DNA from: a virus | DNA length: 37,673 bases | Reading direction: 5' to 3' (one strand) | Virus record (IMG/VR): IMGVR_UViG_3300036766_000763 | Location: 1-37,673 of that record | Part shown: piece after piece, positions 25,521-32,781 of the stretch | How the letters are laid out: every line of letters starts with the position of its first letter | How positions within the stretch are numbered: position 1 is the stretch's first letter | The notes under the pieces: generated by a model | Seen by the model: the letters and a program-made list of their open reading frames with translations, nothing else | Told to the model about the DNA's origin: nothing | Databases searched by the model: none | Program-made: the position numbers and the translations under genes

Positions 25521-26387
25521 TTAAGTAATAGTTAAATGTTTTTCGTGCATTTGTTGGAGTTGATGAACGGTGACATGACAATAAATATCGGTGGTAATAA
25601 TTGATTTATGGCCCATCATTTCTTTGATAGATTTAATATCAACGCCGTTCAGATATAAGTGCGTAGCGAACGTGTGCCGGAGGACATGAGGAGTCAGTTT
25701 CTTTGATATTCCAGCCTTTTTAGCCTGTTCGCGCACAATCTTCTCTATCATCACGTTGCTGAGTCGAGAGTTAGCGCATGGACGGTGGCTGTAATGGATA
25801 AATAGGGGAGGGAAGTCGTCTAGTCTTGTTCTAAAGTAATCCTGCAACGCTTCGATCGTCTTTGCGTCCAAAAATACTGTTCGATACTTTCTACCTTTCC
25901 CTAAAACCTGGAACCGCTTTGTCTCAAAATCTATCGTCATACGATTTAACGATCCTAACTCACTCAATCGTAACCCCGTAACATAGAGCATCATGATAAT
26001 TGCTTTATTCCGTTTCTCGATTGCCGTATCAGACCGCAGCGACGCGAACAACTGGTCAACTTCCTGTTTTGTAAGTGGCTCTCGTTCTTTTGTAGCCAAA
26101 TCCATCGTTTCGATCTTGTCAGGGTTCATAGCTTCAATGTCATATTTCGCGCACCATTTCAGGAACGCGCGGAGGACCATAAGATGATAGTTTTGCTGAT
26201 AATCTGATTTCTTTAACCAAACATGGAACTGATCAATCGCCAGGGGAGTAATATCAGTCATTTTCAAGGCTCCCCAATACGCGCAGAACGATTTTAAGCA
26301 GCGGCCATAGTTCCGCAGGGTATGCAGTGACCTCTTCTTGATGTGAAGGTAATTGATGTACTGCGCGGCTGCGTCAACGACTAACAT
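25521..26387 (-). CDS. Tyrosine recombinase (XerC/D-like integrase)
   Basis: The 288-aa protein has a SAM-like core-binding N-terminus (about 1-85) and a complete catalytic domain. The active-site set is R140 in VTGLRLSEL, K164 in LGKGRKYR, H234 and R237 in TPHVLRHTFATHLYLNG, H260 in MMGHKSI, and Y269 in TTDIYCHV. It could integrate the phage at an att or dif site or resolve genome dimers. It resembles Xer proteins more than long phage integrases because it lacks an N-terminal arm-binding domain. Xer-like phages often use the host dif site. No adjacent attP core was identified. Confidence 0.9.
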   Translation of the reverse strand: MLVVDAAAQYINYLHIKKRSLHTLRNYGRCLKSFCAYWGALKMTDITPLAIDQFHVWLKKSDYQQNYHLMVLRAFLKWCAKYDIEAMNPDKIETMDLATKEREPLTKQEVDQLFASLRSDTAIEKRNKAIIMMLYVTGLRLSELGSLNRMTIDFETKRFQVLGKGRKYRTVFLDAKTIEALQDYFRTRLDDFPPLFIHYSHRPCANSRLSNVMIEKIVREQAKKAGISKKLTPHVLRHTFATHLYLNGVDIKSIKEMMGHKSIITTDIYCHVTVHQLQQMHEKHLTIT

Positions 26388-27715: not shown

Positions 27716-29167
27716 TTAGGTTTGAATAAGGGGTTGATATTCTTTTTCAGATTTTCCGAATGTCCAGCCGACAAGTTGTCGGCAAGTTTCCATTTTTTTT
27801 GATGCAGGCCACAGTTCCCGTTCCTTTTGTTCGCTCCACTCTTCCCATGTTTCACCTTTCCCGCCTTCCATAGCACGAAGCGATTCTTCTAGCGTTGGTG
27901 GACCTTGGAGATAATATTCACGTGCAGTTGATGGGCAAAGAACATGAGCATACATGTAGACATCATCACCGATTTTTGTTGTAAGAAGAGCACCGAACTC
28001 ATCTTCATTAACAACTTCAAATTTCATCATGGTAGCGAAGTTTTCGGCTCCTACACGTTCAATCATTACCCGACGGACCTCTTCGTTTTTTTCTTCGAGA
28101 ATATTTTCCTTGGTAATCGTTTCAGGTTGCATGATGATTTTTTCTGTTACAGCAACCCCATGATAGTAATAGATCTTATAGCCATCGTCCCATTCAATGG
28201 CTGGTGAATTTTCGCTATGGAGCATTCCACGATTATCTCGATGAAGTTGTGCGGGAAGCTCAGCTACCAAGCAGACATTGTTAAACTGGATCATGTCATA
28301 GATGTTGGTATGAAGAAGCTCTTTGAACTTATCAAATTCAGGAATGAACTTAAGGCCTATTCTCTGGAAATAATCATAGAATGATACCCAAGCATAGTCG
28401 GTGATACTGCCGATTGAAGAAAAAGAGAAATGCTCCAGTTTTTCTGCCCCGACGTTGGCCTTGACGTTGGCCTTGACGTTGGCCCCGACGTTGTCCCAGA
28501 CGTTGGCCCCGACGTTGGCCCCGACGTTGGCCCCGACGTTGTCCCTGACGTTGGCCCCGACGTTGTCCCCGACGTTGTCCCTGACGTTGGCCCCGACGTT
28601 GTCCCTGACGTTGTCCCTGACGTTGGCCCCGACGTTGTCCCTGACGTTGGCCCCGACGTTGTCCCTGACGTTGTCCCTGACGTTGGCCCCGACGTTGTCC
28701 CAGACGTTGGCCCCGACGTTGTCCCAGACGTTGGCCCCGACGTTGGCCCCGACGTTGTCCCTGACGTTGTCCCAGACGTTGTCCCAGACGTTGTCCCCGA
28801 CGTTGTCCCTGACGTTGGCCCCGACGTTGTCCCTGACGTTGGCCCCGACGTTGTCCCTGACGTTGTCCCAGACGTTGGCCCCGACGTTGTCCCAGACGTT
28901 GGCCCCGACGTTGTCCCTGACGTTGGCCCCGACGTTGTCCTTACTTAAACCTTTTTTAAGGAGATTCGCGGCAAATTGGAGTCCTAGCGGAGAAGAAAAA
29001 AAGTAAACCTGTGGTTTTGGGAGTTTCGAGAATTCATAAAGCCATTCAATAAATTCGGTGGCTTTCTTTTTATCTATTTTGGCTCCGCTATCGCAGCGAC
29101 CGATCCATTCACTCCGAACGGTAACCATGAGTTCTTCTTGTTCTTTGGTTAATTTTTCGAGTTTCAT
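27716..29167 (-). CDS. DUF6745-like protein with 41 tetrapeptide repeats
   Basis: The 483-aa protein has a helical N-terminus (about 1-74, with KLTKEQEELMVTVRSEW and LPKPQVYFFSSPLGL). Residues about 76-240 consist only of four-residue units of the form [G/R/W/K]-[D/A]-N-V. The C-terminal domain (about 290-430) contains LHRDNRGMLHSENSPAIEWD, YKIYYYHGV and NEEVRRVMIERVGAENF. Those flanking parts match what I recall of DUF6745 proteins, whose N-terminal side often carries DSVW-type repeats. The function is unknown. The repeats may form a solenoid surface and can change in number without breaking the frame. The gene lies next to the GHAH/HEEH-motif gene, a pairing I recall from bacterial genomes. 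Confidence 0.7.
   Translation of the reverse strand: MKLEKLTKEQEELMVTVRSEWIGRCDSGAKIDKKKATEFIEWLYEFSKLPKPQVYFFSSPLGLQFAANLLKKGLSKDNVGANVRDNVGANVWDNVGANVWDNVRDNVGANVRDNVGANVRDNVGDNVWDNVWDNVRDNVGANVGANVWDNVGANVWDNVGANVRDNVRDNVGANVRDNVGANVRDNVRDNVGANVRDNVGDNVGANVRDNVGANVGANVGANVWDNVGANVKANVKANVGAEKLEHFSFSSIGSITDYAWVSFYDYFQRIGLKFIPEFDKFKELLHTNIYDMIQFNNVCLVAELPAQLHRDNRGMLHSENSPAIEWDDGYKIYYYHGVAVTEKIIMQPETITKENILEEKNEEVRRVMIERVGAENFATMMKFEVVNEDEFGALLTTKIGDDVYMYAHVLCPSTAREYYLQGPPTLEESLRAMEGGKGETWEEWSEQKERELWPASKKMETCRQLVGWTFGKSEKEYQPLIQT
28451..28942. repeat. Tandem array of 41 units of 12 bp
   Basis: The + strand unit is GACGTTG[G/T]CC[C/T][C/A/T], read without a gap or insertion from 28451 to 28942. 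The constant core GACGTTG encodes the N-V part of each tetrapeptide on the minus strand. The variable bases choose G-A, R-D, W-D, G-D or K-A. Changes in copy number by slippage keep the frame. Both antisense frames are open through the array only because of this periodicity. Confidence 0.95.
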
Positions 29168-29180
29168 TGGAGAGGGGTTA

Positions 29181-29486
29181 TCAATCTAAGACTTTTCGGA
29201 ACGCAGTTTTTGAGAAAGTGCGCTGATGGGTGACTTTATAGGTACCTGGTGGTAACGGAATAGTTTTGTGTTCTTCATGAGAAAGGGGAGTCTCAACTGG
29301 TACCGCCAGCATCCGGCCCCAATTCTTTGTTTTTGGCTCAACAAAGAGGGTAGCAGTGTCACCAAGCTTATGAGCGTGACCAGTAGCCTCACCGAGCGCT
29401 ACCTTGTTTGTCTTAGATTTTTGTAACTTTTTAGAGATTTTTTCTGACGTTTTTTCCAGGAAAACGTCGCCATGTCTGAACTGCAT
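29181..29486 (-). CDS. GHAH/HEEH-motif protein, partner of the DUF6745-like gene
   Basis: The protein has 101 aa from MQFRHGDVFLEKTSEKISKK at 29486. A longer start at 29573 overlaps the previous stop (TAATG) but adds 29 residues not expected for the family. Conserved-looking motifs are GEATGHAHKL (about 37-46), LSHEEHKTIPLPPGTYKV (about 72-89) and QRTFSKTAFRKVLD at the end. I recall short proteins of this QGDVLL...GHAH...HEEH type next to DUF6745 genes in bacterial chromosomes. The repeated His suggest metal binding in a cupin-like beta fold. The biochemical role is unknown. Confidence 0.6.
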   Translation of the reverse strand: MQFRHGDVFLEKTSEKISKKLQKSKTNKVALGEATGHAHKLGDTATLFVEPKTKNWGRMLAVPVETPLSHEEHKTIPLPPGTYKVTHQRTFSKTAFRKVLD

Positions 29487-29572
29487 ATGTGTAGAGGGTA
29501 AAAAAATAAAGGTTATGTATTTATCTATCGCCGCCATATTGTTCGGCCTGGTCTCTATCGTTATCCCAATCA

Positions 29573-30448
29573 TTAGGGACCGTCGACATGAGACGCTTTG
29601 CCTTCATAGGGCATTAGGAACTCATAGGTTTGCTCGGAAATGAAGCCGCCCTCATTGTTTTGCGCGATCAGCTTGTAATACGGTTTACCCGCATTTTTCC
29701 CGTTCTTTATTGGGCCAGTAAACAATTTCCAGCCCTGCTGTTTAACGATCGTCTCGATCTGTTTTTTACTCCATTTGGAGTATTCACCCGGTTTAAGATC
29801 AGAGCTTAGGCTATCAAGCGGATATTCAGGCGGTACAGGCACTTCGACCTTAACCTCTGCTTCGATAATTTCACCAGTTTGAGCATTTGGTTTCTTTTCT
29901 TCTTCAACAGACTGCCATTTTTCGCTTTCTTCATAAGTTCCAGCAAACAGCTCTTGAAACGTCATGCGTAACCCCTGAGCTTCAGCAACCTTTTTAATCA
30001 TGGTTGCAGGCTTATCGTTCCAGACACTTTTTTTAGTGTTATATTCTTTTAATTCAACATAGAGAAAATTAGGCCGAGTCGAGCTTTTACGCTTTACGAT
30101 GCAATAGGCTCCACAGAGTGTTCCACGATCTGCCGCAAGGTTGTAAGTATGCTTTGGTGTACCATCGACCACCTCAAACTTATCCTGCGAATAAACCGCG
30201 TCTACAATGTGATAATCATAATTTTTATGTGCTTGGGCCGACTTGCGGTAACCGTCACGGCCAATGAAGATAGCCGCCGGAGCGTTACCGTATTTGACCG
30301 CCCAGATTTCACGGAGGTACGGATTAAGTTTCGTTGCTTGTCCAATAGCATTGAAAATTTTCCATTCGTTATCATTAAGCGCCGGCGCATATATCTTTTT
30401 AATTTCAGCAAGGGCTACCGAATCTTGCCAAAGAGTTAGAGTGTTCAT
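29573..30448 (-). CDS. bet: Bet/RecT single-strand annealing protein
   Basis: The 291-aa protein belongs to the Redbeta/RecT group of annealing proteins, which pair complementary single strands in phage recombination and replication. Supporting segments are IFNAIGQATKLNPYLREIWA (about 29-48), VKYGNAPAAIFIGRDGYRKS (about 51-70), the central WNDKPATMIKKVAEAQGLRM and FQELFAGTYEESE. The C-terminal 90 residues form an acidic linker and a small extra domain (KPGEYSKWSKKQIETIVKQQ), a partner-binding tail as in many RecT proteins. No RecE/Exo-type partner is adjacent. The DEDDh exonuclease at 22.9 kb is the only nuclease in the operon. Confidence 0.88.
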   Translation of the reverse strand: MNTLTLWQDSVALAEIKKIYAPALNDNEWKIFNAIGQATKLNPYLREIWAVKYGNAPAAIFIGRDGYRKSAQAHKNYDYHIVDAVYSQDKFEVVDGTPKHTYNLAADRGTLCGAYCIVKRKSSTRPNFLYVELKEYNTKKSVWNDKPATMIKKVAEAQGLRMTFQELFAGTYEESEKWQSVEEEKKPNAQTGEIIEAEVKVEVPVPPEYPLDSLSSDLKPGEYSKWSKKQIETIVKQQGWKLFTGPIKNGKNAGKPYYKLIAQNNEGGFISEQTYEFLMPYEGKASHVDGP

Positions 30449-31961: not shown

Positions 31962-32028
31962 AAGCTGTTCATAAAACTTGGGTGGTGCGGAATTGAACAG
32001 CTTCGCCACCCTCGTTTTATTCGTTTTT
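31962..32028 (+). promoter_or_regulatory. Attenuator-like switch upstream of the replication gene
   Basis: AAGCTGTTCA (31962-31971) is the perfect complement of TGAACAGCTT (31994-32003). GGGTGG-t-GCG (31980-31989) is complementary to CGCCACCC (32004-32011), followed by TCGTTTTATTCGTTTTT and the ATG at 32029. The arms interleave. With no bases between the last two arms, both full stems cannot coexist, so the leader should choose between an antiterminator and a terminator. A separate palindrome ATTGTACAAT lies at 31873-31882. Confidence 0.6.
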
Positions 32029-32781
32029 ATGTCCACTCCTCAAGTTGAAGATGGTTATACCGCCATCGCCAACACAATCCTGGAAAAATTAGCACAAGCA
32101 CGTTTATCTGGCAGCGAATGGCAGATAGTTATTTTTATTTTCCGGAAGACGTACGGCTACAAAAAAAAGGAAGATTGGATTTCACTTTCGCAATTTGAGC
32201 AGGGTTGCGGGATTGATCGTAAAAATGTTTGCCGTTACCTCAAGCGCCTAGTGGCGAAACAGATGATATTTAAGAACGAAAACCGCTTTAGCTTCAACAA
32301 AAACTATACCCAGTGGGTAGTGGCGAAACAGAGGGTGGTAAATCTGAGGGTGGCGAAACAGATGACAAGTAGTGGCGAAACAGATGATGGGGTAGTGGCG
32401 AAACAGACGTACACAAAAACAAATATTACAAAAGAAACTAATACAAAAGAAATAGTTACTAACGTAACTACAACGGCTCCGCCGGTTGAGGTCGAAAAAA
32501 AAGATTCAAGAAATAAAAAAATTAACGAAATGCTCATATCGCTGAAGGGTCGAATAGGCATAGGGGCGTTTGCGGATTCTGGGATTGAACGAAATATGGC
32601 GAAGCATTGCTGGAGTATTTATAACCAGCTCGGAAAAGAAGAATTTTTACGGAGGCTAGATTTTTTACTTCATGATGAATTTCACCACAAAAATTGTAAC
32701 AAAATCAAATATGTTTATAACCAAATTAAAGGCTTTATAGAGCCAAAGGCTAAAGAAGGTCGAGTAGCTATAATTTCTTAA
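32029..32781 (+). CDS. Replication initiator, lambda O-like
   Basis: The protein has 250 aa from the ATG at 32029 (tcgtttttATG); the open frame upstream covers the attenuator. Residues about 1-95 are a winged-helix Phage_rep_O domain (VEDGYTAIANTILEKLAQAR, LSGSEWQIVIFIFRKTYGY, SLSQFEQGCGIDRKNVCRYL). This domain binds origin iterons. A flexible Thr/Lys-rich linker of about 80-150 is encoded by the iteron and AT-rich DNA. The C-terminal domain (about 155-240) presumably recruits a helicase loader or host DnaB. The arrangement copies lambda O. No P-like loader is recognised next to it. Confidence 0.85.
   Translation: MSTPQVEDGYTAIANTILEKLAQARLSGSEWQIVIFIFRKTYGYKKKEDWISLSQFEQGCGIDRKNVCRYLKRLVAKQMIFKNENRFSFNKNYTQWVVAKQRVVNLRVAKQMTSSGETDDGVVAKQTYTKTNITKETNTKEIVTNVTTTAPPVEVEKKDSRNKKINEMLISLKGRIGIGAFADSGIERNMAKHCWSIYNQLGKEEFLRRLDFLLHDEFHHKNCNKIKYVYNQIKGFIEPKAKEGRVAIIS
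32251..32406 (+). repeat. Five iterons inside the initiator gene (probable origin)
   Basis: GTGGCGAAACAG occurs exactly five times: 32251, 32320, 32350, 32372 and 32395. Most copies are extended to TAGTGGCGAAACAGATGA. Four copies are read as V-A-K-Q, but the copy at 32372 is in another frame (S-G-E-T), so the DNA and not the protein is conserved. The last four are spaced 30, 22 and 23 bases, about two to three helical turns. Confidence 0.9.
32407..32470 (+). other. A-rich putative unwinding region of the origin
   Basis: Directly after the iterons the coding strand is very A-rich, with two ACAAAAGAAA repeats (near 32427 and 32443). It corresponds in position to the AT-rich unwinding segment next to the lambda iterons. 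Confidence 0.6.

Follow-up and report, generated by a model that had tools for sequence, protein, structure and literature searches.

The closest described counterpart of the protein analysed here is gp54 of the mycobacteriophage Tweety (EF536069), the product of an early-region gene beyond the integrase, in which an in-frame array of about 48 units of 12 bp lies between two unique regions. Its authors counted 48 units, the pattern used in the present study counts 49, and copy number varies among relatives (48, 26, 15) (PMC2884959, PMC9262239, PMC8549241). The units read AA[GWQ][SY] and differ from one another at hardly any bases other than 7, 8, 10 and 11. According to later reviews, Tweety mutants escaping the Phrann gp29/gp30 defence are altered in repeat number (PMC9262239, PMC8549241); among the array proteins compared here, counter-defence is demonstrated for Tweety only. 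An in-frame array whose copy number varies is also described for a phage gene that is not essential, as VR2 of bbp36 of Bordetella phage BMP-1, compared here by description only; its element, however, measures 24 bp (a 19-bp repeat plus a 5-bp spacer) (PMC2884959). GxxxG repeats have been described for FliH (PMC2674601).

The window, i.e. the whole stretch of viral DNA that was analysed (37,673 nucleotides), contains the following features around the gene under study:

25521..26387, minus strand: tyrosine integrase, about 1.3 kb beyond the array gene and on the same strand
27716..29167, minus strand: open reading frame of 483 amino acids, composed of N-terminal domain, tetrapeptide array and DUF6745 domain
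27719..28444, minus strand: C-terminal domain, residues 242-483
27884..28288, minus strand: Pfam DUF6745 match, residues 294-428
28445..28936, minus strand: array of 41 units of 12 bp, AAC GTC NRG GMC, i.e. NV[GRWK][AD], residues 78-241
28937..29167, minus strand: N-terminal domain, residues 1-77, with a motif like KLEKLTKEQ...SPLGLQFA; relatives with and without the array conserve this domain
29181..29573, minus strand: phrog_27831 protein of unknown function, between the RecT gene and the array gene
29573..30448, minus strand: RecT/Bet-like ssDNA annealing protein, upstream of the array gene with one gene between

The presence of a tyrosine integrase indicates a temperate phage, and RecT and integrase as neighbours place the array gene, which follows the RecT-family gene with a single small gene intervening, in the recombination/early region. 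A RecT match was present in 6 of 34 records; in G000, G003, G010 and G021 no more than about 3 kb separates it from the DUF6745 gene. PADLOC, NCBIfam and PHROGs assigned no function to the array gene, no convincing match to defence or anti-defence families was obtained for it or for the neighbours tested, and no mention of DUF6745 was found in the literature searched. Elsewhere in the window, a 22-bp repeat (2.6 copies, 32350-32407) within the O-like replication gene (31978-32781) possibly represents origin iterons.

The original prediction of 41 perfect-register 12-bp repeats was confirmed: 41 units were found, each exactly 12 bp long with zero length exceptions. This number was counted on one metagenomic contig and is, like other individual metagenomic copy numbers, provisional because many contigs break inside the array. 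The position first given for it, 28451-28942, does hold the array but in the register xxNV, half a unit away from the protein register NVxx at 28445-28936. Identity at a lag of 12 was 0.875 over 480 bp, compared to at most 0.34 in 20 shuffles, and the G+C content of the array (65%) differs from that of the remainder of the gene (41%). N-V was correctly described as fixed with substitutions at the residue-choosing positions: codons 1-2 are AAC GTC in all 41 units, codon 3 is GGG (20), AGG (12), TGG (7) or AAG (2), and codon 4 is GAC (21), GCC (19) or, in the last unit, GCA (1). With the end units set aside, residues 3 and 4 are coupled, Gly being followed by Ala in 16 of 18 cases and Arg or Trp by Asp in 19 of 19. 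The assignment as a DUF6745-like protein also held, since the PF20530 profile matched the window protein with 88 bits (curated cut-off 27; E=6.9e-25). Two plus-strand open reading frames over the array (28401-29006 and 28430-28948) were dismissed as mirror frames of a stop-free repeat.

The arrays of Tweety gp54 and of the window protein have in common invariant codons 1-2, variation at the nonsynonymous positions of codons 3 and 4, and Gly or Trp as third residue. They differ in the fixed pair (AA instead of NV) and in the third and fourth residues (GWQ/SY in gp54); the gp54 flanks have no Pfam match and no detectable homology to the window protein, BLASTP matches between the two proteins centre on the repeats, and hhalign gave a probability of 0.2%. 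Judged from sequence, the window protein is like Tweety gp54 in design, and membership of the gp54 family is unsupported. The same order of N-domain, tetrapeptide array and DUF6745 is present in gp38 of the Mycobacterium abscessus prophage prophiGD102-1 (MW584211) and in phage cta39025 (MW202476), both deposited as hypothetical proteins, although the arrays are different ones (QL[GRW][DG], 46 units, and SL[GRWE]S, 29 units, respectively). Arrays of this kind are thus not confined to IMG/VR contigs.

Searching with an alignment restricted to the C-domain, and hence independently of the repeats, detected 292 relatives among viral contigs; the best 80 were retained for analysis. In most of these 80 the same two domains flank an array, the fixed pair of which is lineage-specific (SV, QV, NV, NI, QL or AT). 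No array is present between these domains in L103, L126, L137, L138, L141 and L142, and L117 has only a remnant; with about six of the best 80 relatives lacking it, the array is an optional insert. The C-domain tree requires the fixed pair to have changed at least 12 times, where 5 changes would be the minimum possible; the pair is thus passed on by descent but at times replaced. A frame-blind scan for the DNA pattern yielded 53 loci, including arrays in proteins of a second background unrelated to the first (family B: L011, L047, L058, L060, L063); in family A and B proteins the arrays found by DNA pattern are all read in the same protein frame. In L037 a C-terminus of the family B type is preceded by a weak DUF7666 match. 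The hypervariable array in a DUF6745 phage protein is real, widespread and under strong selection. Pure assembly error as a general cause was rejected since phage records and an isolate plasmid carry such arrays.

Bacterial genomes, scanned with a tighter alignment, contributed 23 loci. DUF6745 proteins encoded near STM4011-STM4015 genes (Deinococcus, Streptomyces) share the domain but have no tetrapeptide array; the Streptomyces protein has a different insert, and in Deinococcus and Verrucomicrobia leucine-rich repeats stand in front of DUF6745. Such repeats precede DUF6745 in L174 (Deinococcus), L161-L163 and L165-L172; those of the Deinococcus protein weakly match an LRR of the XopL type. 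In the DUF6745-related bacterial loci L156, L159 and L164, low-complexity arrays rich in Ala, Trp, Arg and Asp replace strict tetrapeptides. Plasmid 3 of Nocardia farcinica NCTC11134 (L178, 1-1932) carries a DUF6745 gene with a QV array that is split over three frames, namely the N-domain, the first part of the array, and the remaining array with the C-domain; this split reflects a genuine slip or else an error of sequencing. The longest array seen, of the SV type with about 152 partly degenerate units, is that of L092. In L029 and L066 (on the reverse strand of the locus) clusters of short open reading frames, the majority of which begin with MIDPG[EP]C... and finish in a SLEEES-like sequence, surround degenerate SV-type arrays and represent another array family.

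The original prediction of an array adjustable in frame is in agreement with the exact 12-bp units and with arrays that, in several relatives, turn over much faster than their flanks. In L015 and L052 the flanks are 97-99% identical, but the arrays of 30 and 28 units share order no better than shuffled ones, and the same applies to L146 and L147 at 93% flank identity. L019 and L058 have the first 8 units in common and L036 and L062 the first 6 before they diverge, and L136 and L140 share blocks with many units different. Turnover is not always fast, as four near-identical pairs have identical arrays (L057/L064, L085/L118, L079/L080, L098/L099). No sister contig of the window was recovered with exact patterns taken from the flanking sequence. 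As an argument against a variable surface, the original prediction had named a copy number and order identical throughout the relatives, together with a disordered prediction; relatives do not all agree in repeat number and order, even though the four pairs have identical arrays, whereas a disordered or undefined prediction was indeed obtained for the array (see below).

The reading that we tentatively favour is an early protein with two conserved folded parts and, between them, a rapidly evolving array arm of four-residue units that tunes counter-defence as Tweety gp54 does. Slippage or recombination between copies presumably gains, drops or reshuffles units, and the frame would stay intact because each unit is exactly 12 bp long. 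As an arm, the array is probably flexible or weakly helical, and its length, together with its mix of Trp/Tyr, Arg, Gly and Asp/Ala, could set the contact of the flanking domains with a target in the host or a prophage. The analogy with Tweety gp54 points to a bacterial or prophage defence component as the most likely target, and the array would allow the phage a quick re-tuning of its counter-defence. We infer this role from the analogy, and it is the best-supported functional reading of the DUF6745 array protein.

An alternative that we consider rather unlikely is a multivalent segment of stickers and spacers, in which Trp/Tyr and Arg at a four-residue pitch, separated by small or acidic spacers, mediate self-association or broad multivalent binding, so that composition and length matter and order does not. 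Relevant to it are 60 distinct arrays with enough units, taken from 71 (the C-domain set plus the window). At the variable positions aromatic residues make up at least 5% in 58 of the 60 arrays, and basic as well as acidic residues are present in all 60. In six arrays codon 3 ends in C, which makes Trp unreachable; Tyr stands in for it in four of these, the other two being near copies without an aromatic residue. A regular placing of Trp, Arg and Asp, as originally proposed, was not found: unit order in the window matches shuffles, no lag is common across arrays, the search for a higher-order unit periodicity across arrays gave no general rule, and only a slight avoidance of neighbouring Trp units was detected across arrays (combined z -2.2). 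Nine arrays have repeated blocks longer than in shuffles. Array composition (aromatic, basic, acidic) is thus conserved and order is essentially random, as a sticker-and-spacer segment predicts, and the low-confidence structure prediction for the array fits as well. The near-invariant first two residues of each array are, however, not explained by such a segment alone.

Less probable still is a long helix with a four-residue period, comparable to FliH GxxxG, that serves as a ruler, each unit adding about 6 A and turning the C-domain by about 40 degrees. AlphaFold does draw a helix through the array of the window protein, but with a pLDDT of 31-62 between confident N- and C-domains, and in the natural relative L105 with only 12 units both domains reach values near 90 while the array stays below 50. 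Ala-rich arrays in some bacterial relatives and a match of part of the Tweety array to FliH models, below their cut-offs, speak for a helix, whereas the many Gly and beta-branched residues, and the fact that Gly or Ala is not fixed in every array, speak against it. Gly is present in 20 of the 41 window units and does not recur at every fourth residue as in FliH-type GxxxG repeats. Foldseek and VIA searches with the models gave no convincing PDB fold, and a BFVD search matched mainly DUF6745 relatives. P230 of Plasmodium, the sole profile match to a solved structure, covered mostly array positions and was discarded as a match of composition.

A functionless neutral minisatellite, grown by slippage in a dispensable loop, would account for the relatives without array and for the fast turnover in some pairs. 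Drift, however, predicts per-site synonymous variation similar to nonsynonymous variation, and this is not what the 60 arrays show. Within the unit, variation is concentrated at bases 7, 8 and 11 (mean heterozygosity 0.645, 0.167 and 0.452, respectively), all other bases staying at about 0.05 or less; third bases of all four codons have a diversity of 0.027-0.048. At codons 3-4, pN averages 0.289 and pS 0.037, pN exceeds pS in 60 of 60 arrays (Wilcoxon p=1.6e-11), as the proposed selection for amino-acid variation had led one to expect, and synonymous differences at these codons are zero in 35 of the 60 arrays. The comparison is not built in by the detection, which demanded conserved first two residues and left third bases and codons 3-4 unconstrained. 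The fixed codons themselves vary between arrays (25 codon pairs), and their third-base GC tracks that of the phage (rho 0.65), which argues against one copied DNA element. While the invariant positions are explained by repeat homogenisation, the kept amino-acid variation needs selection or a site-specific mutation process. Since the same residue classes are also kept across unrelated backgrounds, the neutral reading is strongly disfavoured.

The regular folded solenoid with a patterned surface, the view taken in the original prediction, is very improbable: the perfect period and one fixed hydrophobic residue per unit would suit it, but the low array pLDDT in both of two models does not support a solenoid, and the positions of Trp, Arg and Asp have no pattern beyond chance. 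Targeted mutagenesis, e.g. by a diversity-generating retroelement, is hardly worth considering as the source of the variation, because, even though few bases per unit vary, a search of 34 records (G000 plus 33 that carry related genes, some of them fragments) gave no RVT_1 (reverse transcriptase) match, no evidence of a site-specific mutation process was found, variation extends beyond adenines, and repeat gain and loss explain the turnover.

We therefore return to the array arm that tunes counter-defence, with turnover by slippage or recombination and an arm-like structure as its presumed basis, and regard the DUF6745 array proteins as a widespread new variant among the phage proteins with tunable tetrapeptide arrays. 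It is conceivable, though we suggest it with reservation, that they belong to a widespread and so far undescribed class of phage proteins in which short-period coding arrays act as fast-evolving recognition arms aimed at bacterial immunity; each lineage would keep one fixed dipeptide, diversifying selection and turnover would reshuffle an alphabet of aromatic, basic and small residues, and the arrays would be a protein counterpart of contingency loci. Tweety gp54 has so far looked like a mycobacteriophage oddity, and the same design is now present in at least two further protein backgrounds, one of which, DUF6745, is represented by hundreds of relatives among viral contigs. The unusually clear nonsynonymous excess within the arrays makes the relation of array length and composition to the defence that is defeated a directly testable question.
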